From Streptomyces showdoensis (GTDB taxonomy: Bacteria; Actinomycetota; Actinomycetes; Streptomycetales; Streptomycetaceae): a stretch of DNA of 64,000 bases. The number at the start of each line of letters is the position of its first letter. The stretch's first letter is position 1. The stretch is taken from positions 1 to 64,000 of the forward strand of contig NZ_BAAAXG010000009.1 of assembly GCF_039535475.1 (NCBI RefSeq). Direction: 5' to 3'. The position numbers were made by a program, and so were the translations under genes. The notes under the pieces are model-generated. The model did no database searches, was not told the DNA's origin, and saw only the letters and a program-made list of their open reading frames with translations. Below are positions 1 to 56,199 of the stretch, in pieces.

Positions 1-697
1 GCTGCAGCTCCAGTTGGGCCAGGTACTCGGCGTGGGCCTCGGGGGCCTCGCGGTGGGCGCGAAGGGCGGCGACCTGGCGGGCCTCGGCCTCGGCGCACAG
101 GGTGGCGAACTCGGTGCTGGCGGCCGGTGGGCGGTAGGCCTCTCGGTGGGCGGCGAGGGCTTGGTGGTAGCCGGCCGACGCGGTTTCCCGGCTCCGGACC
201 GACCTTGCCTCGGCGCCCGGGGCGGCCTCGGGGTTTACCGCGGTAAACCGATCTGGCTCGGCGGGGGTGACCGTTCCGATCGGCAGGACGCGGATGCTGC
301 GGACGGCATCCGCACCGACCTTGTCGTTGATCTGGTGGCAGAGCTGTCCGCCGAGGAGTCGCAGTTGGGTGGCGTAGGCGGGGGATCCGGGACGCAGGTC
401 GAGGCGGCGGCGTTCGGCGTCGTAGGCGACGGCCAGGACGTTCCCGTCGTACTGCGGGTAGAGCTCGGTCCAGCGGGCGAGGATGTTGCCGCCCTGGACT
501 CGGCCGGTCCAGCCCTGCTCGGTGCGGAGCCGGTCGAGGACGGCGCCGAAGGTCTGGGGGTCGCGGCCGTCGATGCCGCGGCGCTGGAGCCGGCGGACGG
601 GCTTGACCGGTCCGGTGCCCGGTCGGCGGCCGGTCTTGTAGGCGGCGAGGGCCTGGCGGGCGAGGTCGGCGCCGGAGGGGCGCGGTGCGTCAGGCAT
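1..697 (-). CDS. DciA-like DUF721 protein (3' end beyond window)
   Basis: The reading frame starts with ATG at 697 and stays open to the left window edge, so the C-terminus is missing. Residues about 45-140 show the DUF721 pattern: a conserved Trp-containing first half (RWTELYP), a hydrophobic strand (LAVAYD), then QLRLLGGQLCHQIN and a GADAVRSIRV ending. DUF721 proteins are related to DciA, which in many bacteria loads the replicative helicase; homologues are common on actinomycete plasmids. The start overlaps the stop of the upstream HTH gene by 8 nt, so both are probably translated together. A role in element replication is inferred. Confidence 0.75.
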   Translation of the reverse strand, partial: MPDAPRPSGADLARQALAAYKTGRRPGTGPVKPVRRLQRRGIDGRDPQTFGAVLDRLRTEQGWTGRVQGGNILARWTELYPQYDGNVLAVAYDAERRRLDLRPGSPAYATQLRLLGGQLCHQINDKVGADAVRSIRVLPIGTVTPAEPDRFTAVNPEAAPGAEARSVRSRETASAGYHQALAAHREAYRPPAASTEFATLCAEAEARQVAALRAHREAPEAHAEYLAQLELQ

Positions 698-2012
698 AGG
701 TGGCGTCCTTCCAGGGGTTGATGCGGATGTTCGTGGAGATCTCGAGCTGGGCCAGGCGGACGAGCCGGTCGCCGTACACCTTGCGCGCGCCGTCCTCGCC
801 CGCGGTGGCGATCCAGGCGCGGACGATGCCGAGGTCGGAGGTGGCCTGCAGCTGCATCTCGGCGAGGTCCTCGGTGCTGAGGTCGATCTCGCCCTCGGCG
901 ACGTCGATCCCGGCTCCCTCAGCGACGGGGAGAGCGCAGCCAGCCCAGTCGCCGACGGCGTTCCGGGGGCCCTCCTCGTGCGAGGCGGAGTCGAGCTCGG
1001 CAAGGCGCGCGGCGTCCTGGGCCAGGGTGCTGCGGATGAAGGCGGCCGGGTGCTTCGGACGCCAGCCCAGGCACATGCCGCTGAGCTCGTCGGCGATCTG
1101 CTGCCCGGTCAGACCCCGGTCGAAGAGCGGCCGCAGCACGAACGCGAGCCGCCGGAGCCGCCGCTCGCCCTGCGTCCAGTTGACCAGGGCGCGGACCAGG
1201 CGGGTCTCCTGGAGCTCCCGGGCGACCTGAGCGGGAGAACGGCGGGCGGCCCCGCCGTTGCTGTTGCGCTTGTTGTCGGTCGAGGTGGATGCGGTTCGCC
1301 GCGCGCGCTTGCGCGTCGTGTCTTCTTCACCACCCACTACCTGCACCTGACCCTCCTCATCTACCGAGACCAGGGAAGGGGGCGCACAGCGGTTTTCCAC
1401 AGGCGGGTTGTCCACAGGCTTCGGGGGGGTGGCGAGGGCGCGGGCCTCGTAGCCGGAGCCGATGATCCGGTGGCCCATGGCGCGGTCGTAGACCGGGGGG
1501 ATCACCGCGGCGTAGATGGTGGCGGTGCCGGCGTAGCCGGTCAGGCCGAGGGCGCGGCGGACGTTGGTCTTGGTGCCGTGCACGACCCAGACGAGGGCGC
1601 CGAGCTCGCGGAGGACGGCGACGTGCCGCTTCACGGTCGCCCGGTTGATGCCGAGGCGGGCGGCCATCTCGTCGAGGCAGTACCGGGCGTGCCCGGTGTC
1701 GTAGTCCATGCGCGCAGCGAGGTCCTCAGCGACGGCGAGCGTCGTGCGGTTGGCGCGTGGGTGGTAGCCGGCCTGGATGAGCCAGCGGGTCGAGCGGAGC
1801 CACCGGCGGGGGCCCGTCCGGCGGGACGCCGTGTGCGCGATCTCCTGCTCGGCACCGCGCACGAGGACGTGCTCGGAGACGGTTCTCTGGCACGGGATGT
1901 CACCCGAGGGGAGGGAGATAAGCCGCGAATCGCCCTCTCGGGCGCGCGGAAGCTGACAAACAGCAGCGTCGTACTGCACTATGTACCCGTTCCTGCTCTC
2001 GGAAGAGGGCAT
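690..2012 (-). CDS. Helix-turn-helix protein of actinomycete plasmid replication type
   Basis: About 440 residues. The N-terminal third holds RWLIQAGYHPRANRTTL followed by an HTH (MAARLGINRATVKRHVAVLR) and the block GTATIYAAVIPPVYD. This arrangement recurs in proteins coded on Streptomyces plasmids and integrative elements and is often annotated as replication-associated. The central part is polar and rich in Arg/Ser/Thr; the C-terminus is acidic. ATG 2012 has no clear Shine-Dalgarno site, so the true start may be a GTG slightly downstream. It sits directly upstream of the DUF721 gene. A replication role is likely but not proven by sequence alone. Confidence 0.7.
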   Translation of the reverse strand: MPSSESRNGYIVQYDAAVCQLPRAREGDSRLISLPSGDIPCQRTVSEHVLVRGAEQEIAHTASRRTGPRRWLRSTRWLIQAGYHPRANRTTLAVAEDLAARMDYDTGHARYCLDEMAARLGINRATVKRHVAVLRELGALVWVVHGTKTNVRRALGLTGYAGTATIYAAVIPPVYDRAMGHRIIGSGYEARALATPPKPVDNPPVENRCAPPSLVSVDEEGQVQVVGGEEDTTRKRARRTASTSTDNKRNSNGGAARRSPAQVARELQETRLVRALVNWTQGERRLRRLAFVLRPLFDRGLTGQQIADELSGMCLGWRPKHPAAFIRSTLAQDAARLAELDSASHEEGPRNAVGDWAGCALPVAEGAGIDVAEGEIDLSTEDLAEMQLQATSDLGIVRAWIATAGEDGARKVYGDRLVRLAQLEISTNIRINPWKDATYA

Positions 2013-2112
2013 GAAAAAGCCCCGCTTCGGTGGGTGCTGGTTCTGGTGCGAACCTGAAGGACGCTCGAAACTCGGGCCCCGTCGCCAAACGGGATCTGAA
2101 GTTCGGGCCTTA

Positions 2113-3348: not shown

Positions 3349-3722
3349 GTCCGGTCCCGGGCGGTGCGCACGTCGGTGTCGGCCGGGTGCAGGGTGTTCA
3401 GGGACCGCTCGGCCAGCTGCCCCATGCCGGTGTACCCGGCTTCTGTCAGTGAGCCTCGGAGGCGGCGCAGGGCGGCGTCGTCCCAGCGGGGCTGTTCGGC
3501 GAGCTTCCGCAGGCGGTACCCGACGGTCAGGGCGGTGTTCCACACGCGTCGTACGGCTTCGGCGTCCAGGTCGGGGAAGAGGAGCTCGGGGAGCTTGTCC
3601 GGCTGGCCCACGACGTCGAGCTCGGCGGCCGCGAGGACGCCGGCCAGGAACTGGGCGGAGGAGACCGCGCGGGCGGTGAGGGCCTGGTCGGCCTGGCGCA
3701 GGGTGGTGGGGTGGGTGGTCAC
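3345..3722 (-). CDS. Hypothetical helical protein
   Basis: 125 residues from GTG 3722, overlapping the stop of the WhiB-like gene by 4 nt (GTGA). Predicted mostly helical, with LLFPDLDAEAVRRVWNTALTVGYRLRKLAEQ in two parts and a C-terminal LTEAGYTGMGQLAERSL. No family recognised. It is embedded in a tightly coupled regulatory run (small membrane protein, WhiB, this gene, HTH). Confidence 0.65.
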   Translation of the reverse strand: MTTHPTTLRQADQALTARAVSSAQFLAGVLAAAELDVVGQPDKLPELLFPDLDAEAVRRVWNTALTVGYRLRKLAEQPRWDDAALRRLRGSLTEAGYTGMGQLAERSLNTLHPADTDVRTARDRT

Positions 3723-4576
3723 GCGGCGGTCTCCATGATGCGGACGGGCAGGGGAAGCAGCGACGCAGCCGGGGCCCGGTGCGTGAGCACCAGGTGCCGG
3801 GCGGCCGCCGGGGCGGGGACGGGCCGGACGCGCGGGTAGTCGGGCAGGCCCGGGATGACGAGCTGGACCGGTCGGCCGCGCTCGATGCGTCGCTGGCGGG
3901 CGCCGTTGGTGCTGGGGGCGGCGACGATCGGCCAGCGGCCGTCGGGCACGACCCGGGTGCGGGCCGGGAGGATCCCGCAGGCGCGCGCCGCTTCGAGGAG
4001 GAGTTCGCGGCTCGCGGTCTCCTTGTCCAGGCCGAGCAGCGTGCACAGGGCGGAGCGCTGCCAGTTCGCGGTGCGGAGGTCCATGTGGGCCCGGTAGGCG
4101 ACGAGCTCCTCGTCGGTCTCGCGGGCGAGCGCGGCCAGGAGGCGGCGCTTGGCCGCGAGGCTCTCCGGGGAGAGCTTCGCGATGGCCGGGGGCAGCGCGG
4201 CGGTGGGGGCCGGTTCTGGCAGAACCGGCTGGGCCGTGCGGCTGGCGATGAGCGCCCGGTGCCGGTCGAGGGACCGCTGCCCGCCCATGATGTGGTCCGG
4301 CTCGGCCAGGCCGCCGCCGGGGACCTCGGTGTTCGCGTAGATCCGGCAGGCGGCCAGGACGGGGCACCGGTTGCAGATGGCGATGGCACGGCGCTCGTAC
4401 TCACGGCGCAGGGCCTGGGGCAGGCCGCCGTCCTCGGTAGACCTCGCCCAGGCGTCGAGAGGAAGGGTGTCGTCGGCCGCGGACATGCGGGGCTGGTCCG
4501 GGTCGGGGGCGCAGCCGCGGTAGGCGTAGTGGCGGTGTTCGGTGAAGTCGGTGTAGGCGGTCTCGGTGGTGGTCAC
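3719..4576 (-). CDS. WhiB-family iron-sulfur regulator
   Basis: 285 residues from GTG 4576. The four WhiB cysteines are visible: C22 (RGCAPDPD), then C68, C71 and C77 in ICNRCPVLAACRIYA. A GGG-containing turn (VPGGGLAEPDHIMGG) follows, where WhiB proteins usually have GVWGG. WhiB proteins bind a 4Fe-4S cluster and act with the principal sigma factor. This protein is much longer than typical WhiB (about 80-130 residues); the extra 190 C-terminal residues contain helical and basic blocks. Phage-borne WhiB proteins are known to alter host development or superinfection; the role here is inferred. Confidence 0.85.
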   Translation of the reverse strand: MTTTETAYTDFTEHRHYAYRGCAPDPDQPRMSAADDTLPLDAWARSTEDGGLPQALRREYERRAIAICNRCPVLAACRIYANTEVPGGGLAEPDHIMGGQRSLDRHRALIASRTAQPVLPEPAPTAALPPAIAKLSPESLAAKRRLLAALARETDEELVAYRAHMDLRTANWQRSALCTLLGLDKETASRELLLEAARACGILPARTRVVPDGRWPIVAAPSTNGARQRRIERGRPVQLVIPGLPDYPRVRPVPAPAAARHLVLTHRAPAASLLPLPVRIMETAA

Positions 4577-4897: not shown

Positions 4898-6720
4898 TCA
4901 GGCGGCGTGGAGGATGGCGCGCAGGCGGGTGCCGATCCAGGCGCCTACCTGGGGGGAGACGGCGTTGCCGAAGCCGTCGACCTGGTTGCGGGCTGAGCCC
5001 CAGACCTTGAAGGTGCCGCTGTAGTCGGCGAAGTCGACGTCGAAGCCGCAGCCGCGGCCGACCTCGTGGGCGGCCATCATGCGGAAGTAGCACTCCTCCA
5101 GCGGCAGGTCGGCCAGGGATGCCCGCCACTCGGCCGTGAGCAGTGCCGTGGTGTCGCGGGTGGTGAGGGTGCCGAGCGGGTCGAGCAGCGGGTGCGGTGC
5201 GGTCTCGTTGCCGAGGGGCCCGTTCTGCTTGAACCAGCCGGCCGCGGTGAGCAGGCCGGGGATCTGGTCGGAGGTGAACGTCGGCATGGCCTCGCCGTGC
5301 ACGGTGGGGACCGTGTTCTTGCGGAACGGGATGATCCCGGAGGACACCACGGCGAGGGTCTCCGAGCCGACCTGGGTGGGCAGGGGCTCCCCGGCGCCGC
5401 GCGGACCGCCCTGGTAGTTGTCCACGGCGAGCGCGATGGGCGGGGTGATGATGCCGGTGGTGTTGGTGGCCGGCTGTGCCCACAGGGGTTCGTCGAAGCC
5501 CCGCGAGCGGCAGTTGGAGCCGGGCCGCTCGAAGGTGTTCCCGGCCGCGGCCATGATGGCGCCGGTCGAGAGGATCGACGTCTCCTGCTGGCTGGTCTGG
5601 GTCGCCAGCGGCTGCCAGGGATGCCGCTCGGAGCCGTAAACGGCCTTGGCGGGCATGAGGACGGCCGGGAAGTCGGCGAACCGCTGGCGGCAGCGTTCCG
5701 CGCGCGCCATCGTCGCGGCCGCGAGCGGCCTGGGCCGGTCCCCGATCCGGGTGCCGAGCGTGCTCAGGTCCAGCGCGGCCAGCGACGGCGTCATCGGCGG
5801 GACGACCGGCCGGCGGCAGCTCGGGCACCGGTACTCGTACTGCTTGCCGTAGCGCACCGACCCGGTCGGCGGGATACCCGTGCGCCAGGTCCACACGGCC
5901 TCGACGTCCTTGTCGCAGTGCAGGCAGTGGGACACCGGACGGTGCTCCAGGTCCGGCGTGGGCAGGGACCGGTCCCAGAACGCCCAGTAGGCCCGGTCGC
6001 GGGACTGCGGCACCCCGAAGAACTGGCTGTTGAGGTACAGGACCTTGTGGTTGTAGCCGAGGATGTCGAACTGCTTCAGCCACCAGCGGTACGTCGACCC
6101 GTCGCCCACCTTCCGGCGGCCCTGGACTGCGGGGCCCCATGAGGTCAGCTCGGTCGTGCACTCGACGAGGATCAGCCGGGGGCGGTGCTGCGCGGCGTAG
6201 TGCAGCACGCAGTTCGCGGTGGCCCGGTCCCGCTCGGAGCGGGTGACGCGCGCCTCGTAGTCGGGGTCCTCCAGCTCGAACAGGCCCACGCCCTGCTCGT
6301 ACGCCTTGATCGTGTTGGCCTGGGAGTGGTTCACGCAGCTCACGCCGGCCGCCAGGAAGTCGGCAGGGGGAAGGTCCCGGGCCGAGTGGTAGTCCGCGGC
6401 CTCCGGGTCCTTCCCCCTGCCGACTTCCTGGCGGCCGGGGGAAGGTCCCGGGCCGAGTGGTAGTCCGCGGCCTCCGGGTCGACCAGGTCGGCGATCCAGT
6501 GCTCGGCCTCGGGGTGGTTCGCCTCGTGGACCTCGACCTTGTAGGCGTTGTGGTTCGCCGCCATGATCGTCGTGACACCGGCCAGGGAGAGGCCCTTGGT
6601 CAGTCCCCCGAAGCCGGAGAACAGGTCGACCGCCGTCACCTCGTCGTGGCGGAACCGGCGGCGCCTGACGGCCGGGCGATGTGTGGCGGTACGGCGCTTC
6701 TTCAGCATCTGGGGCGGCAT
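4898..6720 (-). pseudogene. C5-cytosine DNA methyltransferase, frame broken by a 71-bp insertion
   Basis: Starts at ATG 6720 (TGATG overlap with the ATPase gene). Motif I is AVDLFSGFGGLTKGLSLAG. The motif IV region reads GVSCVNHSQ, where the usual PC is replaced by SC. Later motifs are FGVPQSRDRAYW (QxRxR) and GNAVSP. Two CxxC pairs (CLHCDKD, CPSCRRP) lie inside the variable region. The frame is lost at 6410-6480 by a duplicated plus inverted 71-bp stretch; removing exactly 71 nt restores one 583-residue ORF. It probably methylated DNA for anti-restriction, but as written it is inactive unless the insertion is an assembly artefact or reversible. Confidence 0.8.
6347..6480. repeat. Templated insertion: 27-nt inverted copy plus 44-nt direct duplication
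   Basis: Bases 6410-6436 are the exact reverse complement of 6347-6373, and 6437-6480 exactly repeat 6366-6409. The 71-nt addition (27 + 44) is not a multiple of three and shifts the methyltransferase frame. The pattern fits template switching during replication, or a library or assembly artefact. Confidence 0.9.
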
Positions 6721-7718
6721 CAGGCACTCCTCTCGTGGTCGTTCCCGTCCGCGGCGGCCTTGCGCGCACCGCCGATGCGGCTGATCAGCCCGCCGAGAGT
6801 GGTCAGCTCCTGGGTGTCCGGGGCGAACAGGGCAGCGCCCAGGAGGCCTCGCTGGGACAGCTCGCCCCGGTACAGGGCGAGCAGCTGCTCGTAGGTCGTC
6901 TCCGGGTTCAGGGCCTTGGCGACGTAGTCCTGCACGGTGGGCATCGGCGTGCCCTCGCTGAGCCACCGCACGATCTTGTTGCCGGTCTCGGTGTTGGGCA
7001 GCTCGATCCGCTCGCCGGACTCGAACAGGCCCGGGTAGGAGCACTTCGAGACGGTCATGGTGTGTTCCATGTCGAGGTCGCCGACGAAGTCGAACTCGTA
7101 CTCGGCGTCTGCCCGCTGGTCCGGCTTCAGCCCGACCTTCTTGGGCTCGACCCCGCCGTTCTTATTGGTGACCAGCTCGTACGCCGTCTTGACCCGCAGG
7201 GTCATGATCACGTGACCGGGGTAGGCCATGACGGCGTCCCACATCTCGTGCTCGACCGGCTTGATGGTCTTCCAGCCCGAGGTGAAGGCGTTGTTGGAGC
7301 GGGAGGCGCTGGTCGTGCGGTCGACCTGTTCAAGGACGCCGCCTCGCCCGGACCAGTAGTGCGTGCCGGAGTCGATGATCATGACGTCGATGCCCTGCCG
7401 CGCGCCGACGGCGAGCGCCCGTACCAGGGTCTGCGGGCGGAAGTCCGGCATCCGCAGGTGCTTGAAGGGGAACAGGCTGGCGTAGTGGCTGGCACGCCCG
7501 CGCTCGGTGTCGCAGACGCCGATGTTCGTGCCCATGCCCGCGGCCATGGCCAGGGCGGTGTAGGACTTCCCCGCGTTGGCCGGGCCGGTCAGGGCGATCA
7601 TGGCGTTCGTCGCGGGCCGGGTGGCGTCCACGAAGGTGAGTTCTTCGCGCTGGTTCGGGACGTGCTGGGTCGGACCCTCCGCCGTCTTGCTGGCGGGGGC
7701 CTCGGTGGCCGTGGCCAT
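6720..7718 (-). CDS. Sak4-like RecA-fold ATPase (phage recombination)
   Basis: 332 residues, ATG 7718 behind an AGGAGAG site. Walker A is GPANAGKS at residues 45-52; Walker B is GIDVMIIDSG near residue 112. The core resembles the short RecA/Sak4-like AAA_24 ATPases that phages use with single-strand-binding or annealing proteins for homologous recombination and replication. A charged helical C-terminal extension follows. It is coupled to the methyltransferase downstream and lies in the early module. A general phage AAA ATPase is the alternative reading. Confidence 0.75.
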   Translation of the reverse strand: MATATEAPASKTAEGPTQHVPNQREELTFVDATRPATNAMIALTGPANAGKSYTALAMAAGMGTNIGVCDTERGRASHYASLFPFKHLRMPDFRPQTLVRALAVGARQGIDVMIIDSGTHYWSGRGGVLEQVDRTTSASRSNNAFTSGWKTIKPVEHEMWDAVMAYPGHVIMTLRVKTAYELVTNKNGGVEPKKVGLKPDQRADAEYEFDFVGDLDMEHTMTVSKCSYPGLFESGERIELPNTETGNKIVRWLSEGTPMPTVQDYVAKALNPETTYEQLLALYRGELSQRGLLGAALFAPDTQELTTLGGLISRIGGARKAAADGNDHERSA

Positions 7719-8370: not shown

Positions 8371-8402
8371 CCATCTTCTATTGCGCGAGCCATAGGTTAT
8401 GG
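8371..8402. promoter_or_regulatory. Operator-like palindrome A
   Basis: Imperfect inverted repeat CCATCTTCTATTG / CCATAGGTTATGG with a 6-nt spacer, related to sites B, C and D. It lies in the leader of the RHH-like gene, immediately upstream of its start at 8361. Confidence 0.65.
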
Positions 8403-8438: not shown

Positions 8439-8484
8439 AGATTACCCATAACCTATTGTGCACGCAATAGGTTATGGGTAGAGT
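8439..8484. promoter_or_regulatory. Palindrome B with divergent promoters
   Basis: Perfect inverted repeat at 8443-8480: arms TACCCATAACCTATTG and CAATAGGTTATGGGTA, 6-nt spacer. It overlaps two core promoters. Rightward: TTGTGC (8456-8461), 17 nt, TAGAGT (8479-8484), feeding the WYL gene. Leftward: TTGCGT, 17 nt, TAATCT (8439-8444), feeding the RHH-like gene. A protein bound here would block both. Confidence 0.75.
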
Positions 8485-47281: not shown

Positions 47282-47282
47282 T

Positions 47283-47807: not shown

Positions 47808-48037
47808 CAGTCGGCCGCCGGGGTGCTGTGGCGGGCGTCGATCAGGGCGTCGAGCGCGCTGTGGTCGAGGGTGACGGTGACCATGACCGGGGTGGTCTTC
47901 TGGGTCTTCCACTGGCCGTGTCCGTCTCCGGGGACCGCGGCGGCCATCTTGGCGAGGAGGAGGCCGCGGGCGGCGTCCAGGAGGTCGATGGCCTCGGCGA
48001 CGGTGGTGCCGGTCCAGGTCTTCGGGGGGTTCGACAT
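47807..48037 (-). CDS. Small hypothetical protein
   Basis: 76 residues from ATG 48037. A helix (TVAEAIDLLDAARGLLLAKM) and a beta strand (TPVMVTVTLDHSALDALID). One-base overlap with the DUF6197-like gene and 17 nt after the SpdB-like gene. No family recognised. Confidence 0.6.
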   Translation of the reverse strand: MSNPPKTWTGTTVAEAIDLLDAARGLLLAKMAAAVPGDGHGQWKTQKTTPVMVTVTLDHSALDALIDARHSTPAAD

Positions 48038-48054
48038 CGGGGGCTCCTTCTGGG

Positions 48055-49590
48055 TCAGGCACTTCGGGTGTCGGTGGTCTGCTTCGCGTCCTCGAAGAGG
48101 ACCCGGGCGGACTTCAGGCGGTCGTAGGCGGTGGTCTGCTTCAGCCCGAAGTCGTTCATCACGTCCTCCAGGGACACGGCCTCCGGGCTGTCGGCTTCGA
48201 GGAGGCGGGCGAGGACCTGCTCCACTTCGGATTCGCGCTTCGAGCGCTGCCCGCCGAGGGCGACCGCTCCGGCACCCGAACCTGAAGTGGCACCCGAAGC
48301 TGAAGCCGAACCCGTGGCCCCGGGCCGAAGCGAAACCGAAGTGGCGCTTCGGGTCCGGGCTTCGGCCGCCACACGCTGCGCCCGGTCCTGCGCGGCGGCC
48401 AGCTCCTGGCGTCGAACCTCTTCGGCTTCGGCTGCGGCCTGCGCGAACTTCTGCTGCCGCTCCATCTCCCGGGCACGGCCCTGCTGCTCGCGCTGCTTCA
48501 GTTCGGCTTCGGCTTCGGCCTCGCGGCGCCGCCGGGCGATGGCTTCGAGCTTCGCTTCGGTTTCGGCTTCGACCACCCGGGCCGCCGCTTCGGCTTCACG
48601 GCGCTTCGCTTCCACTTCGAGCCGGGCCGCTTCGGCCGCGACTTCGGCCCGGGACTTCGCTTCGGCTTCGGCCGCTTCAGCTTCGGCACGTTCGGCCCGG
48701 CGCTTCGCTTCGGCTTCGACGTCGCGGAGTTCGGCCGCGTGCTTCGCTTCAGCTTCGGCTTCAGCCTTCGCCTTCGCTTCGGCCTGCCGCTTCGCTTCGG
48801 CTTCAGCCTGCCGCTTCTCCTCCTGGTAGGGGAGATCGATCGCCTCCTCCACGCTCATGCCGTCGGCGACGAGGTCGAGGACGAGAAGCTGGTCGGCGGA
48901 CGCCTTCCGGCGCCACCGCCGGCCGTGCTGCTTACGCAGCTGCGCGCGGTAGATCCGGGCCTGCCGCTCCAGGTCGATGACGGCGGCGTAGGAGCGGATG
49001 TCCCACAGCCGCTGGCGGCGCCAGATGACGAAGGTGTTGAAGGGGTTGAGGAACCAGCGGGACAGGGGCGGTGACTCGATGTGCTTGTCGGCGGTGATGT
49101 CGGCGATCCGGCCCACTGCGTGGCGGGCGGCCTCGACGGCGATGACGAACAGGATCGGGATGACGCCGTGCATGCCGACGCCGACCGGGTCGGGCCAGGC
49201 GGCGACGGCGTTGAACGCGATCGTCGCCGCGGTGAGGCCCCAGGCGGTCTGGCGGAGCAGGGGGTAGGGGATGCGGCGCCAGGTGAGGAGGAGGTCGAGG
49301 GCGAGGAAGGCGATGATGCCGGCGTCGACGGCGACCGGGAACGCGTCTGCGAACGCACCGAAGCCCTTCGCCCTGGCGAGCTTGGTGACGGCGGTGTAGG
49401 AGCCGATGAACCCGAGGGTCGCGATGGTCAGAACGGCGGCGGCGACGGTCCCGATGAGGACCTTCTGCACCATCGACAGCGGCTCGGGCTCAGAGCTGCG
49501 GGGGGTGGTGACCCCGCCGGTGGGCAGGGGCTGCCACTCCCCCATGGTCAGGGGCTGGGGCGGCACGGGGCCGGCCGGGGTCATGGTCAC
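48055..49590 (-). CDS. SpdB-like DUF2637 membrane protein
   Basis: 511 residues. N-terminal half has four membrane segments (VLIGTVAAAVLTIATLGFIG; FPVAVDAGIIAFLALDLLL; TAWGLTAATIAFNAVAAWP; MHGVIPILFVIAVEAARHAV), the DUF2637 arrangement of plasmid spread protein SpdB2. Then about 190 residues of Ala/Glu/Arg coiled coil and a C-terminal HTH (LEDVMNDFGLKQTTAYDRLK). SpdB proteins help spread plasmid DNA along hyphae with TraB. The coiled coil is coded by many CTTCGG repeats. Confidence 0.85.
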   Translation of the reverse strand: MTMTPAGPVPPQPLTMGEWQPLPTGGVTTPRSSEPEPLSMVQKVLIGTVAAAVLTIATLGFIGSYTAVTKLARAKGFGAFADAFPVAVDAGIIAFLALDLLLTWRRIPYPLLRQTAWGLTAATIAFNAVAAWPDPVGVGMHGVIPILFVIAVEAARHAVGRIADITADKHIESPPLSRWFLNPFNTFVIWRRQRLWDIRSYAAVIDLERQARIYRAQLRKQHGRRWRRKASADQLLVLDLVADGMSVEEAIDLPYQEEKRQAEAEAKRQAEAKAKAEAEAEAKHAAELRDVEAEAKRRAERAEAEAAEAEAKSRAEVAAEAARLEVEAKRREAEAAARVVEAETEAKLEAIARRRREAEAEAELKQREQQGRAREMERQQKFAQAAAEAEEVRRQELAAAQDRAQRVAAEARTRSATSVSLRPGATGSASASGATSGSGAGAVALGGQRSKRESEVEQVLARLLEADSPEAVSLEDVMNDFGLKQTTAYDRLKSARVLFEDAKQTTDTRSA

Positions 49591-49619
49591 AGTGATCGGT
49601 GTCCTTCCTGGTCTCGGAG

Positions 49620-49811
49620 TCAGCGGTTGATGCGGGCGGCCTGGTAGTCGGCCTTCGTGCAGCCGGCGTCCTCCGCGTAGTCGAGCGCGTTGTCCGCGAG
49701 GGCGACGGCCTCCTGCACTTCGGGGCTGTCGGGTCCGTGCTCGGCGAGGGTTCGGGTGAAGTGCTGGCCGGCTGCCACGGCGAGCGCCGCGGCGATGTCC
49801 TTCTGGGACAT
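49620..49811 (-). CDS. Small helical protein
   Basis: 63 residues from ATG 49811 behind GAGAGGAGC. DIAAALAVAAGQHFTRTLAE and VQEAVALADNALDYAEDAGC are two helices. It stands between Spd-like genes; function unknown. Confidence 0.6.
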   Translation of the reverse strand: MSQKDIAAALAVAAGQHFTRTLAEHGPDSPEVQEAVALADNALDYAEDAGCTKADYQAARINR

Positions 49812-49885
49812 GTGCTGCTCCTCTCGGGTCAGGTGGCGGTGGGAGCCCTGGGGCCGGGAGACCGGCCCCAGGGCGCCCGCAGCGG

Positions 49886-50188
49886 TCAGGCGGCGCCGTG
49901 GCGGGCGTGGTCGGTGGCGATGGCGGTGAGGCGGGCCTGCTCGTCCGCGCTGACGCCAGCCATCTCGATCTGGACGCCGCACCCGTCCTGGCCGCAGGTC
50001 ACGGTGCTGCTCGGGGAGTCGCTGCGCCGCGTGGCGTTGACCGCCCACGCCACGTTCGCGACGGCCAGGGCGACGACGGACACCGTCGCCATCACGGAGG
50101 CGCCGGACATCCAGACCTGGGTGGCGATGACGGTGCTGGCGGAGGCGGTACCGATGACGACGACGGAGTTGGCGATGGGCGAGGACAT
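49886..50188 (-). CDS. Small Spd-like membrane protein
   Basis: 100 residues from ATG 50188 behind AAGGAGCC. Two membrane segments (NSVVVIGTASASTVIATQVW and SVVALAVANVAWAV) and a C-terminal domain with CGQDGCGV. Resembles small spread proteins of Streptomyces plasmids in topology and location. Confidence 0.65.
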   Translation of the reverse strand: MSSPIANSVVVIGTASASTVIATQVWMSGASVMATVSVVALAVANVAWAVNATRRSDSPSSTVTCGQDGCGVQIEMAGVSADEQARLTAIATDHARHGAA

Positions 50189-50278
50189 GGGGCTCCTTCG
50201 GTGAGGTCTCTGGTTCGGGGAGAGGGGTGGTGTCCGGCCCGTTGTCGGCTCCCGGGCCGGACACCGTGGGGAGGGTGG

Positions 50279-50578
50279 TCAGGCGACGGCGAGGCGGTAC
50301 TCGGCGACCATGTCCGGCAGGTCCTTCAGGCGGTCGGCGACCTGGTTCAGCAGCACCTGCTTCGCGGCGGCGTCCGGAGCGCGCCACTCGGCGTCGTCGA
50401 TGAAGGTGACGGCGTCCCTGATGTCCTCGAAGCCGTTGATGCCGCTCCGCTTGAAGATGTGGACGGCGTCGAGGAGCTGGTTGCCGAGGTCGCACAGGTC
50501 CACGACCGGGTTGTCTTCGACGACGAACGCGACGTCGTCGGCGTACTTGGCGAGGATCTTCTCGGGGGTGTGGTCCAC
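50279..50578 (-). CDS. Hypothetical helical protein
   Basis: 99 residues from GTG 50578 behind AAGGAGCATCC. Helical and acidic (EKILAKYADDVAFVVEDNPV; FEDIRDAVTFIDDAEW; VLLNQVADRLKDLPDMVAEY). No family recognised; real by ribosome site and operon position. Confidence 0.6.
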   Translation of the reverse strand: MDHTPEKILAKYADDVAFVVEDNPVVDLCDLGNQLLDAVHIFKRSGINGFEDIRDAVTFIDDAEWRAPDAAAKQVLLNQVADRLKDLPDMVAEYRLAVA

Positions 50579-50633
50579 GGTGGATGCTCCTTCTGCGCGG
50601 TCCGGCGCGGGCAGGGCGGTCAGAGGGTGTTGA

Positions 50634-51059
50634 TCAGCGGCCGTTGTACGGGAGCGCGCGGCACGTCTCGGCGTGCTGCTGCGCCCACTTCCGGGCGGCG
50701 GCGAGGGGGGCCAGTGCGGCGGCGGAGGCCTCGTCGGCGTCCGCGCTCAGCGGGACGGCGTCGGTGGCGGGCACCTGGTGCTCCTGGTCGGCGCAGCCGT
50801 TGCCAGCGCAGCGGACGAGGGCGGCGATGGCGACGCCGTCCTGCATCTCGGTGAAGGAGCCATGCTTGCGCTTCCGGGAGAACTTGACCTGGAGGTCGGC
50901 CTCGATGACGGCGCCGCCGACGCCCTGGTACCGGCCAGCGGGGATGGCGACGATGTGGTTGGTGCTGAGGACGCGGCGGCCGCTCTCCAGGTGCCGCCTC
51001 TGGATGCGGATCTCCTCGGGGACGGCGTCGGCCGGGTTGGGCGCGAAGTTGGTGTACAT
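50634..51059 (-). CDS. Hypothetical protein
   Basis: 141 residues from ATG 51059. EEIRIQRRHLESGRRVLSTN, YQGVGGAVIEADLQVKFSRK and a middle CAGNGCADQEHQ Cys pair suggest a small beta domain with metal site; the C-terminus is helical. Similar proteins occur in Streptomyces transfer regions. Function unknown. Confidence 0.6.
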   Translation of the reverse strand: MYTNFAPNPADAVPEEIRIQRRHLESGRRVLSTNHIVAIPAGRYQGVGGAVIEADLQVKFSRKRKHGSFTEMQDGVAIAALVRCAGNGCADQEHQVPATDAVPLSADADEASAAALAPLAAARKWAQQHAETCRALPYNGR

Positions 51060-51131
51060 GGCGGGCCCTCTCAGGTGGTCGGGAGCGGGGCCCGGCCCGT
51101 TGCCGGGCCCCAGTGGTGCCGTGCGGGTGGG

Positions 51132-51554
51132 TCAGGAGCGGTCGATGAGGGCGGCGGCCTCGCCGGTGTGATCACGCGGCGCGAACTCCGCCAGCTCGTA
51201 CGCGAACCGCTCGCCGCACAGCTCGACCTGCTTGGCCGTCTCCGCGTCCAGGCCGTCGAGCGCCGGGTTCGAGTCGGCGTTCGTCAGCCGCTGCACCAGC
51301 AGCCCGAACGCGGCCAGCAGGTCGGTGCCGTTCCCGGCGATCGTGGAGAGGATCGTCTGCGTCTGGTCCGCCGTCAGGGCGTCCAGCGCAAGGAGGCGGA
51401 TCCCGTCGCGGATCATGTCGACCCCGGGGTGGACCCCGGCGGTGTCGTCGAGGACGCCTTCGAGCTCGTCGTCGAGCGGCGGAACACCGACCTCAACCGG
51501 CGGCTGCAGCTCGCCCGGCCGGTGATACCAGGGGTAGGAGCCCTTCGCCATCAC
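51132..51554 (-). CDS. Hypothetical protein
   Basis: 140 residues from ATG 51554 (second Met one codon later). Pro-rich N-terminus, then helices (GIRLLALDALTADQTQTILS; AAFGLLVQRLTNADSN; ELCGERFAYELAEFAP). It overlaps the next upstream gene by ATGA. No family. Confidence 0.6.
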   Translation of the reverse strand: MMAKGSYPWYHRPGELQPPVEVGVPPLDDELEGVLDDTAGVHPGVDMIRDGIRLLALDALTADQTQTILSTIAGNGTDLLAAFGLLVQRLTNADSNPALDGLDAETAKQVELCGERFAYELAEFAPRDHTGEAAALIDRS

Positions 51555-51730
51555 AGCTCCCCCTCCACCGACTCACCCAGGAACGCCTCGTACGCCAGGA
51601 CACCGGCCTCCGGGTCGGCGCCGTTCAGCGCGTCCGCGAGGAGGCTGATCGGGTCGACGGCGGCGAAGTGGTCCTCGATCGCAGCGACCAGCAGCGGGTC
51701 CAGCTCGTCGTACTCCGCGCCCGCTGCCAT
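51551..51730 (-). CDS. Small acidic protein
   Basis: 59 residues from ATG 51730, overlapping the preceding stop by one base. Acidic and helical (DPLLVAAIEDHFAAVDPISL, DPEAGVLAYEAFLGES). Function unknown. Confidence 0.55.
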   Translation of the reverse strand: MAAGAEYDELDPLLVAAIEDHFAAVDPISLLADALNGADPEAGVLAYEAFLGESVEGEL

Positions 51731-52164
51731 CACGCCACGACCTTCGAGGCGGAGGCCGGGCCGGACGGGGTGAAGCCGCCGCACGTCCCGGGGCACAGCC
51801 ACATGTCGCAGATCGGGCAGCGCTCGTTGCTCGCGGTCAGCTTCGCCAGCCGCTTCTTCTCGAACCGGAGGTTGTCCAGCGCGGCGGCCTGCGTCTCGCA
51901 CGGCACGCTCTGGAAGCTGGGCGACTCGACGTAGGTGGTCAGCCGTCGGACAGCGGCGCGGGCCGCGTCGACCTCGGACCGCTCGACCGCCGGGGCGAGA
52001 CGCAGCACCGGCTGCCGCTCGAAACCGGGGGCCATCTCAGCGAGCGTCCGACGCGCCGGACGGGCCACGTTCGCGTCGTCCAGCCGCGCTCGGCGCAGGG
52101 CCTCAGCCGCGCCGTGGGAGGCGGTGTAGATGGAGGTGGGGGTCTTCGTGCGATCCTGATTCAT
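51730..52164 (-). CDS. Zinc-binding protein, first gene of the transfer operon
   Basis: 144 residues from ATG 52164 (AGGAGG upstream). Helical N-terminus and a C-terminal Cys cluster CPICDMWLCPGTCGG that could bind zinc. Being first after the regulated promoter it may be a transfer regulator; not proven. Confidence 0.6.
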   Translation of the reverse strand: MNQDRTKTPTSIYTASHGAAEALRRARLDDANVARPARRTLAEMAPGFERQPVLRLAPAVERSEVDAARAAVRRLTTYVESPSFQSVPCETQAAALDNLRFEKKRLAKLTASNERCPICDMWLCPGTCGGFTPSGPASASKVVA

Positions 52165-52210
52165 GGCGGATCTGGCCTCCTGTGTGGCAGGTAGGGCTGG
52201 TCTGCTTCGC

Positions 52211-52238
52211 GGTCCCTGGTGTGCAACCACCAGGGACC
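52211..52238 (-). terminator. Hairpin in the transfer operon leader
   Basis: Perfect 11-bp stem GGTCCCTGGTG / CACCAGGGACC with a 6-nt loop between the leftward promoter (about 52275-52303) and the first start codon. No U-tract; could attenuate or stabilise the leader. Confidence 0.5.
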
Positions 52239-52272
52239 GTTGTGCTTCTGAGGGATCCTCAGCGGCACAACT

Positions 52273-52322
52273 CAATATTCCTAGGACTAGACTTGCGTGT
52301 CAAGCTAGGCGGCGAATAGTCT
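52273..52322. promoter_or_regulatory. Divergent promoters with GntR-type operator
   Basis: Leftward: TTGACA (52303-52298), 17 nt, GAATAT feeds the transfer operon. Rightward: TTGCGT (52293-52298), 18 nt, TAGTCT (52317-52322) feeds the GntR gene. A palindrome CTAGACTTG / CAAGCTAG (52287-52308, 5-nt spacer) overlaps both. The GntR protein is the likely ligand, as with KorSA-type control in pSAM2. Confidence 0.7.
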
Positions 52323-52344
52323 CGTGATTAGAGAGGAGGACCGG

Positions 52345-53115
52345 ATGCCGAAGCCCCAGCCGAAGTACCGCGACATCGCGGACGAGCTGCGCGCCCAGAT
52401 CGAAAGCGGAGAACTCCCGCCCGGCAAGAAGTTGCCGTTCACCGACGACCTGGTGGAGCGGTTCGGCGTGTCGAAGCAGACCGTCAGGGCTGCCGTTGAC
52501 GTGCTCGCGCAGGAAGGGCTGGTCGTAGTGCGACGTCGCTACGGAACCGTCGTCCGAGATAGGCGACCCGTCCGGATACCGCTGAGCCGCTACCAAGGCT
52601 CGCTGGACTCAGATGGCCAGCTCGGCCCCTTCGAAGCCGCCTGCGAGGCGCAGGGGTTGAGGGGCGTCATGAAGACCGTGTCGGTGGAGCAGGTGCGTGC
52701 CCCGGATGTCGCGGCCCTGCTGGGCCTCGAGTCCGAAGACGCCTTGGTCTGCCGGCGTCGTGAGGCGCACATAGAGGAGCAGGTCGTCCAGTTCCAGCAG
52801 GCCTGGTACCCGCTCGACGTGGCGCAGGCAGCCGGCCTGGACCAGCCGGGCAAGGTGACAGGCGGCGTCTACGGAGCGCTGGCCGCTGCAGGAATGGCGC
52901 CAGCTGAGGCCGACGAGCGCGTCGGGGCCCGGATGCCCACGAAGGAGGAGGGAGCACAGCTCGGCACAGGGCTTGCCCTGCCCGTGCTCACGGTTGAAAG
53001 GATCAGTCGCGACAACGCTGGTCGCCCGCTGGAGCTGCTCCGTGTAGTTGCCGCGGGAGACCGGATGGATCTCGTCTACGAGGCACTGCCTCTTCCCGGA
53101 AGGCACCAGGCATGA
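52345..53115 (+). CDS. GntR-family regulator with UTRA domain
   Basis: 256 residues from ATG 52345 behind GAGAGGAGGA (GTG 52324 lies upstream of the best transcription start). Winged helix at residues 1-75 (KYRDIADELRAQIESGELPP; VSKQTVRAAVDVLAQEGLVV), then a UTRA ligand domain with VCRRREAHIEEQVVQFQQAW and LPVLTVERISRDNAGRPLEL. Such regulators repress transfer genes in Streptomyces elements. It is divergent from the transfer operon and probably represses both promoters. Confidence 0.9.
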   Translation: MPKPQPKYRDIADELRAQIESGELPPGKKLPFTDDLVERFGVSKQTVRAAVDVLAQEGLVVVRRRYGTVVRDRRPVRIPLSRYQGSLDSDGQLGPFEAACEAQGLRGVMKTVSVEQVRAPDVAALLGLESEDALVCRRREAHIEEQVVQFQQAWYPLDVAQAAGLDQPGKVTGGVYGALAAAGMAPAEADERVGARMPTKEEGAQLGTGLALPVLTVERISRDNAGRPLELLRVVAAGDRMDLVYEALPLPGRHQA

Positions 53116-53165
53116 CCGTGCTGCGGCACTGACCGTTCAGTCCTGGACTCCATCCAGGACGGCGA

Positions 53166-53199
53166 ACGGCCGGAGGGGCTACCGACCCCACCCGGCCGT
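53166..53199 (+). terminator. Terminator of the GntR gene
   Basis: Stem ACGGCCGG / CCGGCCGT with inner GGGG/CCCC pairing. A second small hairpin (GTCCTGGA / TCCAGGAC, 53140-53160) precedes it. Confidence 0.6.
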
Positions 53200-53266
53200 C
53201 CTTGCACCACCGATCTGCGAAATCGGCAGCAATGACGCACCAACCCTCATCAGGAAGGCCGTCTCC

Positions 53267-53326
53267 ATGAGCCTACTTCTTCTGAGACATCGAAGTAATC
53301 CAGCGTCCCGTAAGGACTCGCTGTGA
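53267..53326 (+). CDS. 19-residue leader peptide
   Basis: ATG 53267 after AGGAAGG with 8-nt spacing; peptide MSLLLLRHRSNPASRKDSL. Its TGA overlaps the GTG of the next gene (GTGA), which suggests translational coupling. Confidence 0.35.
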   Translation: MSLLLLRHRSNPASRKDSL

Positions 53327-53604
53327 CCCCCGGCGGCAGGTCTGACCTGCCCTCTTTCGTCACCTTCAAGACGGGCGCCGAGCTCCTCGTCGAGCAAGGG
53401 ATCGCAACCAGCATCACCCCCGACGGCGTTCGGTACATCGCTCGCCAGGACAACCAGGAATGGCCCTTCGGCGAAGGCAAGCCGCACCCGTACGAGAAGG
53501 TCGGCAACGCCCGCGTCATGGCCACCAAGCCGTTCCTGGACTACTTCCGCAGCCACCCGCCGAAGGGGCGGGGCCCGGACAGAGCACCCCGCAGCACCCA
53601 GTGA
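53323..53604 (+). CDS. Small hypothetical protein
   Basis: 93 residues from GTG 53323. FVTFKTGAELLVEQGIATSI followed by GVRYIARQDNQEWPFGEG looks like a small alpha/beta fold; ends with a Pro/Arg-rich tail. No family recognised. Found with GntR regulators in Streptomyces accessory regions. Confidence 0.6.
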   Translation: MTPGGRSDLPSFVTFKTGAELLVEQGIATSITPDGVRYIARQDNQEWPFGEGKPHPYEKVGNARVMATKPFLDYFRSHPPKGRGPDRAPRSTQ

Positions 53605-53644
53605 ACCGGCCCGTCTGGCGCGCGATACGCCAGCCCAGACATGC

Positions 53645-53679
53645 CGAAGGCCGGCGAGTTCACAGCTCACCGGCCTTCG
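53645..53679 (+). terminator. Terminator
   Basis: Stem CGAAGGCCGG / CCGGCCTTCG with inner GAG/CTC pairing, 41 nt after the previous stop. Confidence 0.7.
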
Positions 53680-53826
53680 AAGCACAACAGCGGGTGGTCG
53701 CCCGCTGCACCAAGACCCACCTCGTGAAAGTCAGGTCTACGGGATGACTGTACCCGGATCACCGGTGGAGCCCACCAGAAGCGGCGCACTGCGCCGAGTG
53801 AGCCAGCCGTTTGCTGGAGGCCTGCG

Positions 53827-55302
53827 ATGAGGAAGCGAGCATCGAGGCCGAACCGTTTCGCGGCGGTCGAGAACACGGCGATCGACGCGTTGCCGTCGGT
53901 CTTGGCGACGGGCCTGTTGACGAAGCTGATCCGCGCGCGTGACGGCGAGGATGTGACCGTCGAGGGCCTGTGCAAGACGCACGTCGAGGGCCGTGAGGCC
54001 CTGACCAAAGCAATGCGAATGCTCGTGGAGAAGGCGTTCGTCGTGAAGTTCAAGCTGCAGCGGGCCGCCTCCGAGATGGTCGAGGAGGACGGGGAGCTCG
54101 TCGCGAAGCGCGGGGGCTCCTGGTACACGACGTTCAGCGTCGACTCGTTCGCCTTCACGGCCGAGGACGTGAGCGCCATGCTGGCGGAGATCTATGACGG
54201 CGGGAACGTGAAGTCGCACCGGATCGAGCCGGAGCACCTGGACCCGAACAAGAACGGGGCGGGCTGGTCGCGACCGGGTGCGGGAATCCCGTCGGTCGGT
54301 GCGACCAGGGAGAACGCCGAGCCCTGGCCAGAGGGTGACTCGCGACCGACCTACGGCTCACCGACGGTCGGTCCACCGACCGTCGGTCACCCGGCGGCTC
54401 ATATAAGGAAGAAGACTGTTCTCTCTGAAACTAAGAGCGAAGACGGGATGCCCCTGTCGGGGCGTAGCCCCGTGGACGGGCGTAGCCCTTCGTCTACCGG
54501 TAGTAGGGCTGCTGGGGACGAAGGCGGCTCCGCCGCGTCCGGCAAGACCCAGCGCTCCCCCTCGACGAAGAAGGCGGCGGCCGGCGGGAAGCGGCACAGC
54601 CGCGCCGAGCGGGCCACGGTCGAACAGGTCCTCGCGTTCCTGCCGCCTGAGCTGCCCGTCGACCAGGTCCGCCTTCCCGTCGTCGCCGACGCGATTCTGT
54701 CGGCGATGGCCGCGGACGGGCGGAGCGTCGAGGAAATGGGGCAGCGGATCCTGTACCGCTGGCTGCACCACGGCTTCGCCGAGAAGGTCGCTGCCGGCCA
54801 GCTGCGGAACCCGGTTGGCACCGTCGTGGCCCTCGTCCGGCCGCTGCGCCGGGGAGACAAGTACGCCTGTGCCGACGCCGGGTGCGAGAACGGCCGCGTG
54901 AAGGTCACGGGCGTAGAGGAGGACTGCCGCCTGTGCGCGGTCCGAATCGCCGACTGGAAGGCCGCGCAGCAGCGGAACCGGCCCCCTAGCGGGGAGAAGC
55001 CGCCAGTGCCGCCGCAGCGGGCCCCCGTGGCGCCGTCGAAGCCGCTCTTGGAGGACTGCACCGGCCCTTACTGCACCCGGTCCGTCCGGGCGGGGCGCGC
55101 CCTGTGTGACGACTGCCAGGAGAAACAGGAAGCTGCAGCGGCAGGTGCTGACCTGGTCGGGCAGTGGGACATGGAGGACGCCCGCCGGGCCGAGCAGCAA
55201 GCTGCTGCCGTGCAGGTAGATGCTGAGGACGCCCGGCTGCGCGCGGAGTTCGCCGCCCAGAACCCGGGGCTCGCCGCCTACAGCTCGGATGCGCCGTTCT
55301 GA
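53827..55302 (+). CDS. Winged-helix protein with C-terminal zinc motifs
   Basis: 491 residues from ATG 53827 behind GCTGGAGG. Residues 10-140 contain NTAIDALPSVLATGLLTKLI, LTKAMRMLVEKAFVVKFKLQ and RGGSWYTTFSVDSFAF, a DnaD-like winged-helix family frequent in Streptomyces. The middle is low complexity. Later LPVVADAILSAMAADGRSVE and two Cys clusters (CADAGCENG ... CRLCAV; CTGPYCTRS ... CDDCQEK) may bind zinc. A replication or DNA-binding role is likely but unproven. The gene contains a GC-rich palindrome. Confidence 0.65.
   Translation: MRKRASRPNRFAAVENTAIDALPSVLATGLLTKLIRARDGEDVTVEGLCKTHVEGREALTKAMRMLVEKAFVVKFKLQRAASEMVEEDGELVAKRGGSWYTTFSVDSFAFTAEDVSAMLAEIYDGGNVKSHRIEPEHLDPNKNGAGWSRPGAGIPSVGATRENAEPWPEGDSRPTYGSPTVGPPTVGHPAAHIRKKTVLSETKSEDGMPLSGRSPVDGRSPSSTGSRAAGDEGGSAASGKTQRSPSTKKAAAGGKRHSRAERATVEQVLAFLPPELPVDQVRLPVVADAILSAMAADGRSVEEMGQRILYRWLHHGFAEKVAAGQLRNPVGTVVALVRPLRRGDKYACADAGCENGRVKVTGVEEDCRLCAVRIADWKAAQQRNRPPSGEKPPVPPQRAPVAPSKPLLEDCTGPYCTRSVRAGRALCDDCQEKQEAAAAGADLVGQWDMEDARRAEQQAAAVQVDAEDARLRAEFAAQNPGLAAYSSDAPF
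54360..54387. repeat. Palindrome inside the winged-helix gene
   Basis: Perfect 13-bp arms ACCGACGGTCGGT / ACCGACCGTCGGT, 2-nt spacer, with related CGACC and GTCGGT motifs at 54270-54355. Origins inside rep genes are known in actinomycete plasmids; here it codes the Pro/Gly/Ser/Thr linker. Confidence 0.6.
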
Positions 55303-55482
55303 CCTGGTGAGGTGGGCGTACGGCGTGATGCCCGTACGCCCACCTTCCTAGCCGTCCTCGCTCTGGCGACTGGTGGCCTCAGACAGCCCTTGAACGGCCG
55401 CAGTTCGCCAATCGGCCGCCGCAGGCCCTCCTGGGACGGGAAGATGGGACTATTCGCCCAAGACCGGCTTGGAGGCCAGTTC

Positions 55483-56199
55483 ATGGACGCTCGTCAGATC
55501 ACCGCGCTCGACGACGAAGCCTTCGAGGAGTTACTCCTCGCCCACGTACACCCGCCCGTCCGCGACCCCGACGTCTGGGCCGGGCTGACCCATCCCGACA
55601 ACATCCGCCGCACCCAGTCCGTCGCGGCAGCCAAGCACCAGCGCACCGCCCACGCCCTGCGCAAGCGGAAGGCGGAGCGGGAGGTCTTTCAGCAGGAATG
55701 TCTCGCCCGCGGCTATGAGGGCAAGCGGGATTGGTTCGAGACGCGCGCCGAATACGAGAGCTGGCGATCCCGCGCTGGCAACTTCCACCAGACGATGCAG
55801 AAGGCCCTCTCCGAGATCGCTCGGATCATGAGGGACCAGAACCGATCCGCAGGCGACCGAAGCTTCGGTGCCCAGCGCAACACTCTCCGCCTCCTCGCCC
55901 TCGCAGTGAGCAAGCATCAGGCCGCTCACGCCCGCGCTGGCGGCGTTGCCGAGCAGCAGGACTACGAACTCTGGCGAGTCCTGGACCAGCTCACGGTGCC
56001 CACCGGGCCGGATCAGGACCAGGTGTCGCTTCGCACGATGCTCGACGTGTATTGGACGGAGGTGAATCCGGTCAGCGACGTCGAAGAGCGGCGCGCCGAT
56101 GCCGAGCGGATGATGCGTGGGGCGCCCGGCGGCCAGTCATCCCGCTACGCGGGAGTCCCTCGCGCCCGGCACGTCGACAACGGCAAGGGGCTCGCCTGA
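55483..56199 (+). CDS. Hypothetical helical protein
   Basis: 238 residues from ATG 55483 behind TTGGAGGCC. Starts MDARQITALDDEAFEELLLA, then a long basic helix region (AAAKHQRTAHALRKRKAERE) and RAEYESWRSRAGNFHQTMQ. Found in Streptomyces near winged-helix proteins of the preceding type. No known function. It is the last gene before murB and may mark the right end of the element. Confidence 0.65.
   Translation: MDARQITALDDEAFEELLLAHVHPPVRDPDVWAGLTHPDNIRRTQSVAAAKHQRTAHALRKRKAEREVFQQECLARGYEGKRDWFETRAEYESWRSRAGNFHQTMQKALSEIARIMRDQNRSAGDRSFGAQRNTLRLLALAVSKHQAAHARAGGVAEQQDYELWRVLDQLTVPTGPDQDQVSLRTMLDVYWTEVNPVSDVEERRADAERMMRGAPGGQSSRYAGVPRARHVDNGKGLA

Follow-up and report, generated by a model that had tools for sequence, protein, structure and literature searches.

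The DNA analyzed here, a window of 64,000 nucleotides from Streptomyces showdoensis, comprises bases 1–64,000, that is, two thirds, of the 96,118-bp contig NZ_BAAAXG010000009.1 (C9) in an 8.5-Mb genome of 29 contigs. C9 is a new relative of the plasmid-phage pZL12, a real and coherent element of about 96 kb from the pZL12/pSLE1 family, and we consider it probable that it is a circular phage-plasmid with dual transfer and a recombined tra core; both modes of transfer, in virions and by conjugation, are predicted from its genes. What is new here is the pairing of virion and translocase genes throughout the family, and the swapped cassette of C9. Dual transfer belongs to an already known kind, since conjugation of pZL12, described as a plasmid-phage, is cited as shown in the pertinent passage of an earlier paper (PMC3583192).

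Virion genes, topology and the translocase of C9

On the minus strand, the late genes run from 39.4 to 14.0 kb, each as one open frame, in the order terS, terL, portal, scaffold, decoration, major capsid, head–tail, major tail, tape measure, minor tail, amidase and a pair in the holin position (Table 1), which bears out the full operon from terminase to lysis claimed in the original prediction. Genes were called with a codon-usage script, with approximate starts and a few wrong calls. Twenty-three of the 26 late genes counted (calls c74–c100 minus c97, a 31-codon plus-strand call) match pZL12 in the same order, at 37–68% protein identity over the aligned parts, so the proposed comparison of gene order with pZL12-type elements came out positive; the same number, with the order kept, match pSLE1. 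The head and tail genes suggest a siphophage, an assignment that draws on the whole gene set because residues 158–258 of the major tail protein also match a PHROG named tail sheath (E 4e-12).

To judge by its genes, C9 looks like a circular extrachromosomal element of the kind of pZL12 and the plasmid pSLE1. The minus-strand frame of dciA runs off base 1, so that the left end lies inside the gene, and at the right end one frame encodes a short C-terminus resembling DciA of pSLE1 and of the Streptomyces sp. NBC_01353 plasmid; as both ends fall in dciA, synteny suggests that C9 closes into a circle from which little or nothing is missing. Genes for ParA and ParB at contig positions 93,446–95,769 lie beside dciA and share one region with it, as in plasmid-phages of the pZL12/pSLE1 type, whose circular form measures 84–94 kb, against 96.1 kb for C9. 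DciA, which we take to be DUF721, and the helix-turn-helix (HTH) protein next to it account for the DUF721 and HTH genes noticed earlier at this end. C9 has no chromosomal flank: both its ends are in dciA, and murB, considered as a chromosomal boundary, was ruled out as a second copy. Nothing indicating integration turned up (no search was aimed at att sites). Thus, of the integrated pZL12 relative with tra genes that had been proposed, the virion genes and a conjugation-type translocase do occur in one pZL12-related element, but the element appears extrachromosomal, circular by synteny, with a split integrase. It also exceeds the bounds of 1–56,199 first given to it, since murB and the genes up to the end of the window are on the same contig.

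The tra operon is on the strand of the late genes and upstream of them in the direction of transcription, rather than following them as originally described; the RapZ-like, TraB-like, SpdB-like and GntR genes named there were recovered as RapZ_C, TraB/FtsK-like, DUF2637 and GntR/UTRA genes. The predicted fold of the 779-aa translocase matches the FtsK motor and the conjugation coupling protein TcpA, and the core residues of its Walker A and B motifs are invariant across 23 sequences. Against the PDB, sequence searches returned nothing, and a profile search returned three hits, none below E 0.5. Hydropathy alone suggests an N-terminal membrane anchor (segments at about 15–43 and 108–135), where the predicted helices have low confidence; at the C-terminus (residues 692–768), where TraB-type translocases have a winged helix that recognizes clt/TRS repeats, helices and two strands are seen in the model only.

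Translocase genes across the family

A search of the capsid against 72,556 plasmid records gave 44 matches, 34 of them Streptomyces or Kitasatospora records with at least 95% of the capsid (33 of 84.8–94.1 kb and one of 152 kb); three more Streptomyces records carry a third of it. An FtsK-like translocase is encoded in 32 of the 34, always on the capsid's strand, 6.2–11.1 kb upstream in 31 records and 21.5 kb upstream in one; as the records are related, these counts are not independent. Nineteen translocases are C9-like (one in four pieces), three resemble pZL12.71c (one in three pieces), six are weak hits to pZL12.71c (24–27% over 42–54% of 71c; of these, NBC_01353 was read), two are TraB as annotated in pCQ3/pCQ4, and two form a fifth type. 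BLAST comparisons of the five types with one another yield partial alignments at 21–30% or none at E 0.01, and each type has Walker A. No translocase was found in the whole record of Kitasatospora NBC_01246, and neither a translocase nor terL in the 33 kb searched of WAC08241, where the capsid match is in four pieces.

Among 37 genomes of the same genus, 11, including the one studied, hold a capsid match. In eight of the other ten, all with the match on larger contigs, we read 20 kb from the capsid upstream, reaching about 4–14 kb past the terminase. All eight have the portal and at least part of terL (only 32–37% in four), and ten translocase queries gave no hits in this stretch at E 1e-3. 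Two of these relatives, on 4.5- and 7.1-Mb contigs, are almost surely chromosomal, and the six on contigs of 0.19–1.5 Mb are probably chromosomal prophages. In three relatives a gene annotated as an HNH endonuclease overlaps the start of a shortened terL homologue (L027:38795–40332, L118:14616–16324, L121:13932–15805), which may point to a homing endonuclease or an intein.

In this Streptomyces family, then, genes for virions and for a translocase of conjugation type are neighbors, and a tra operon in such an element, given also the cited conjugation of pZL12, is not new. A 2020 paper described pZL12 as a singleton without close relatives among the phages treated there (PMC7157519). Even then pSLE1 could be counted as a relative, and many more come from the 34 records. 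In the pertinent text, pSLE1 was annotated from the syntenic pZL12, and possible conjugation genes are named only for pSLE2 (PMC4487206). A survey of actinobacterial prophages places many of them in plasmids and type III polyketide synthase (PKS) genes only in plasmid prophages, and in its main text no word beginning with "conjugat" was found (PMC10023795).

The named relatives differ in what they share with C9. pZL12 (GQ919031, 90,435 bp) has the same gene order, a ParB match, a type III PKS gene with its regulator, and the GntR–tra–terminase order; by tblastn it has no homologue of murB, Ku or the RapZ-like protein, the last not having been found in pSLE1 either. The circular pSLE1 of S. leeuwenhoekii (NZ_LN831788, 86,370 bp) agrees with C9 in order, Ku, PKS and dciA and has a TraB 63% identical to that of C9, but this TraB (L069) falls among phage-linked entries of the tree described below, outside the plasmid group of C9, and the palindromes of pSLE1 differ. 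The circular NBC_01353 plasmid (NZ_CP108353, 93,006 bp) has the nearest capsid (82%) and shares the methylase, SSB, one holin-position gene and related palindromes at the same place before a small gene; it differs from C9 in having another translocase lineage in the same slot and its integrase in one frame, its ParA, GntR and WYL-position proteins have no C9 match at E 1e-3, and ParB matches at only 25%. pCQ3 and pCQ4 (NC_013449, NC_019307) are circular, with a related capsid, the GntR–tra–terminase order and genes annotated traA/traB, whereas their TraB aligns with that of C9 at only about 25% over 160–170 residues.

A tra core shared with phage-free plasmids

We compared 36.5–56.5 kb of C9 in 500-bp windows with two local panels, 16 loci without late genes, which extend only about 10–12 kb from traB, and 34 phage-plasmid records or loci. 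Between 41.29 and 47.68 kb, DNA identity to the first panel is 73–94%, and to the second 65–78% where more than 30 bases align, with one window unmatched. In the rest of the region, the first panel yields no match longer than 78 bases, whereas every window matches the second panel except 40,501–41,000, in the RapZ-like gene beside the tra core, which has no match at length in either. When 39,000–56,300 was searched against whole plasmid records, the matches to phage-free plasmids also ended at 41,292, beside the traB stop, and at 47,682, inside a gene also present in pSLE1. For example, pSVL1 of S. vietnamensis (NZ_CP010408, 286,635 bp) has a traB at 94% amino acid identity over 774 aligned residues and a tra core in the same order, with GIY-YIG and DUF2637 genes; unlike C9, it is linear, has no related capsid, and within 39,000–56,300 matches only 41,292–47,682. 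Since the tra core is flanked left and right by DNA of phage-plasmid type, with the adjacent RapZ-like gene as the exception, and both ends of C9 are in dciA, the earlier claim of a single element, not two side by side, holds.

A TraB with at least 84% identity is encoded in 20 of the plasmid records listed, none of them among the 44 with a capsid match, and terS or terL accompanies none of the 15 genome-contig loci at this level (11 of the 15 with at least 6 kb read downstream). Below 65% identity, 8 of the 19 loci in genomes have terS or terL, as do 39 of the 53 viral contigs; the two sets overlap (the same contigs occur in both), and the viral contigs were picked for their phage genes. When 69 TraB proteins were placed in a tree, C9 fell in a group of 14 entries at support 97, or of 17 at support 100, that contains no other phage-linked one and is nested in a set of 27, nine of them phage-linked. 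This position among plasmid copies marks the tra core as a swapped cassette, and the translocase of C9 seems to have been borrowed from ordinary plasmids. The tree requires at least ten context changes, with partly uncertain labels: two loci labeled as lacking late genes (L049 and L085) lie on contigs of about 91–93 kb and may belong to phage-plasmids whose late genes are divergent, which makes the late-gene counts and tree contexts partly uncertain. It was built by a quick method, with a long-branch warning (L061, L100) and a midpoint root, so the direction of exchange beyond the placement of C9 itself is unsure. Two 92.8-kb S. europaeiscabiei plasmids outside the 44 capsid records match C9 at 77.5% over about 41.3–49.5 kb, an observation that is either contrary or ambiguous. 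In the open-licence literature we recognized no report of translocase exchange in the pZL12-type family.

Proposed life cycle and competing explanations

In lysogeny, ParA/ParB, together with DciA and further plasmid genes, would maintain C9 as a plasmid, a role suggested by their presence and synteny. Once the phage regulon is released, the open late genes would give siphophage virions. Between hyphae, the putatively membrane-anchored TraB-like translocase of the FtsK family would pump plasmid DNA across, with the adjacent genes and the DUF2637 Spd-like protein aiding transfer and the divergent GntR protein repressing it; this step is modeled on the precedents of pZL12 and TraB, while C9 itself offers the predicted fold and the genes around it. 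The tra core at 41.29–47.68 kb would stem from a lineage of phage-free plasmids and have entered, through recombination, a conserved slot beside the terminase, presumably replacing an older core, as the identity pattern and the tree suggest.

The two modes are probably under separate control. C9 carries six 32-bp palindromes, CCATANNCTATTG-N6-CAATAGNNTATGG with at most two mismatches; none occurs elsewhere in the genome at up to three mismatches, a reversed-pattern control gave 0, and 20 simulated contigs contained 0 at up to five. O1 and O2 fall within the divergent region at the start of the WYL gene, and O3–O6 lie between called genes (at 41.2, 63.9, 85.3 and 91.3 kb). NBC_01353 has related palindromes, and pSLE1 has different ones, two of them at matching places. 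We infer that a phage repressor, for which the WYL protein is a candidate, uses them as operators. None of the six is in the gap between GntR and tra, which argues for control of the phage genes separate from the GntR-linked control of the tra genes. Repeats do occur in that gap, at 52,150–52,360. O3 was considered as a family-wide switch of the late operon and rejected, as neither pSLE1 nor NBC_01353 has such a site between translocase and terS; for this reason, and because a plus-strand open reading frame separates the RapZ-like gene from terS, O3 is tied to the RapZ-like gene only.

We slightly favor a broader view, in which dual transmission is the standing state of this Streptomycetaceae phage-plasmid family, tied to extrachromosomal life, and the GntR–terminase slot takes interchangeable translocases of at least five lineages, traded both ways with conjugative plasmids, C9 being a recent capture. 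Whether a single element can exploit virions as well as a hyphal DNA pump, and how it divides the two, becomes testable.

Several observations weigh against the interpretation of C9 as a circular, dually transferred phage-plasmid with a captured tra core. None of the Pfam or NCBIfam models hits the 779-aa translocase, and no clt/TRS site was identified for the tra module. The FtsK-like gene 71c of pZL12 is of another lineage (no tblastn hit; hhalign Prob 1.9), so the pZL12 experiments are not directly transferable to C9. The ends of C9, when compared, do not overlap and the two dciA frames do not join exactly, so that closure is deduced from synteny. A 91% TraB homologue is encoded on a 91,881-bp contig (P0002), which may be another phage-plasmid with the TraB class of C9, either a second capture or a sister, and in L146, one of the large-contig relatives without a translocase hit, terS is preceded by a weak GntR match. 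In addition, C9 exceeds by 2% in length the longest of the 34 related records, the one of 152 kb aside, so that its packaging is putative, and its integrase homologue has no single open frame, for which a sequencing error may be the cause.

The last two points would suit an element in decay, a former prophage that persists as a plasmid and has kept conjugation as its sole means of transfer or has lost transfer altogether, and so would the P1-like plasmids without phage genes, which often carry mob or oriT, absent from all but two P1-like phage-plasmids (PMC10879196). We regard decay as unlikely, however, since the late genes are open from terS to lysis, with the matches to pZL12 given above, and the capsid has dN 0.137 versus dS 0.425. 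Somewhat less likely still is that the FtsK-like protein serves phage or plasmid upkeep, in DNA delivery or segregation, and not conjugation. FtsK folds also segregate DNA, and the constant slot of the gene, 6–21 kb upstream of the capsid on its strand in nearly all relatives, would fit such a role; but the same cassette with DUF2637 is found on linear pSVL1 without a related capsid, all eight larger-contig relatives lack a hit to the translocase queries in the 20 kb read, the slot is filled by several translocase lineages, and in pCQ3/pCQ4 the annotation reads TraA/TraB. That the assembly has fused a phage-plasmid with a conjugative plasmid into a chimera, as the sharp change of identity at both ends of the cassette could suggest, is very improbable, as phage-plasmid DNA flanks the 6.4-kb insert on both sides, the tra–terminase order is the normal one in relatives, one match end falls inside a gene shared with pSLE1, as homologous recombination would give, and the full-length traB match occurs only once in the genome.

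The gene calls at 9784–10,077 and 10,303–10,590 on the plus strand were rejected as shadows of a minus-strand gene at 9588–10,739 (73% to an NBC_01353 gene). Rfam at gathering scores found nothing in the window, PADLOC found no match for ten proteins, and the murB region has no near match in the plasmid records searched. A gene of lower GC content directly behind the lysis genes (12,879–13,832), for which neither Pfam nor PADLOC gave a match, is a possible moron.

Table 1. Features of C9 (positions in the window unless marked as contig positions)
Feature	Position	Strand	Basis or remark
dciA, N-terminal part	1–697	−	50% to pSLE1 gene annotated DciA
HTH protein, pZL12.20c-like	690–1862	−	51% to pZL12 12854–12195; HTH Pfam hits under cut-off; adjoins dciA
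WhiB-like protein	3719–4576	−	Pfam Whib below cut-off; 44% to pSLE1 WhiB gene
Cytosine DNA methylase, start uncertain	4898–6769	−	PF00145; 71% to NBC_01353
AAA_24 ATPase	6720–7718	−	PF13479
Palindrome O1	8371–8402		operator-like; 2 mismatches
Palindrome O2	8446–8477		operator-like; upstream of WYL gene
WYL-domain protein, candidate phage repressor	8514–8963	+	PF13280; 55% to pSLE1 WYL protein
Tyrosine recombinase/integrase homologue, two different frames	10858–11971	−	54% and 51% to NBC_01353 integrase, two pieces
Two small genes in holin position	14000–14817	−	14458–14817: 81% to NBC_01353, 62% to pZL12; putative function, from position
Amidase endolysin	14857–15918	−	PF01510
Minor tail and distal tail genes	16213–20567	−	PHROG minor tail for 18719–19654; 61–68% to pZL12.47c–50c
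Tape measure protein, 1745 aa	20564–25801	−	phrog_10780, E 1.3e-99
Major tail protein	26848–27639	−	phrog_2491 over residues 1–154
Major capsid protein	31287–32351	−	phrog_29; 82% to NBC_01353
Scaffold protein	33200–34039	−	phrog_2303
Portal	34804–36657	−	phrog_64; 65% to pZL12
Terminase large subunit (terL)	37269–38870	−	PF03237, phrog_38
Terminase small subunit (terS), by synteny	38848–39411	−	63% to pZL12.68c, adjoins terL; no Pfam hit
RapZ C-terminal-domain protein	40452–41171	−	PF22740, E 3.4e-21; at tra/terminase boundary, behind O3
Palindrome O3	41245–41276		operator-like; between traB and RapZ-like gene
tra core matching phage-free plasmids	41292–47682		match ends; 500-bp windows
TraB/FtsK-like DNA translocase, 779 aa	41294–43633	−	Walker A/B; FtsK and TcpA folds
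traB-adjacent gene	43746–44126	−	present in most loci read
traB-adjacent gene, start uncertain	44148–45926	−	present in most loci read; 44148–45128 scored as coding
GIY-YIG-type protein (MUG113/T5orf172)	45930–46448	−	GIY-YIG gene also in pSVL1 tra core
Two tra-core genes	46634–47807	−	upstream match end falls in second
DUF2637 membrane protein (Spd-like)	48055–49590	−	PF10935, E 9.9e-38; hydrophobic segments
GntR/UTRA regulator, divergent from tra operon	52345–53115	+	PF00392, PF07702
murB, cargo copy	56345–57400	+	95% DNA identity to copy on contig C26
Palindrome O4	63884–63915		operator-like
Palindromes O5, O6, beyond window	contig 85256–85287, 91314–91345		operator-like

Beyond the window, C9 carries a type III PKS gene with an adjacent regulator (contig 70,841–72,852; L016:6841–8852), both of them conserved in pZL12 as well as pSLE1; NBC_01353 has a PhlD gene. 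It also carries a Ku protein gene (contig 76,027–76,956; L016:12027–12956), likewise present in pSLE1 and NBC_01353. In S. somaliensis, a circular plasmid of 85 kb carries vioA and vioB, a pair close to pCQ3/pCQ4 genes that is described as needed for violapyrones (PMC4924298). Within the window, a 40-bp inverted repeat has its copies 11 kb apart (2903–2942 and 13,933–13,972, 98% alike), and the only two occurrences of its core in the genome are these.

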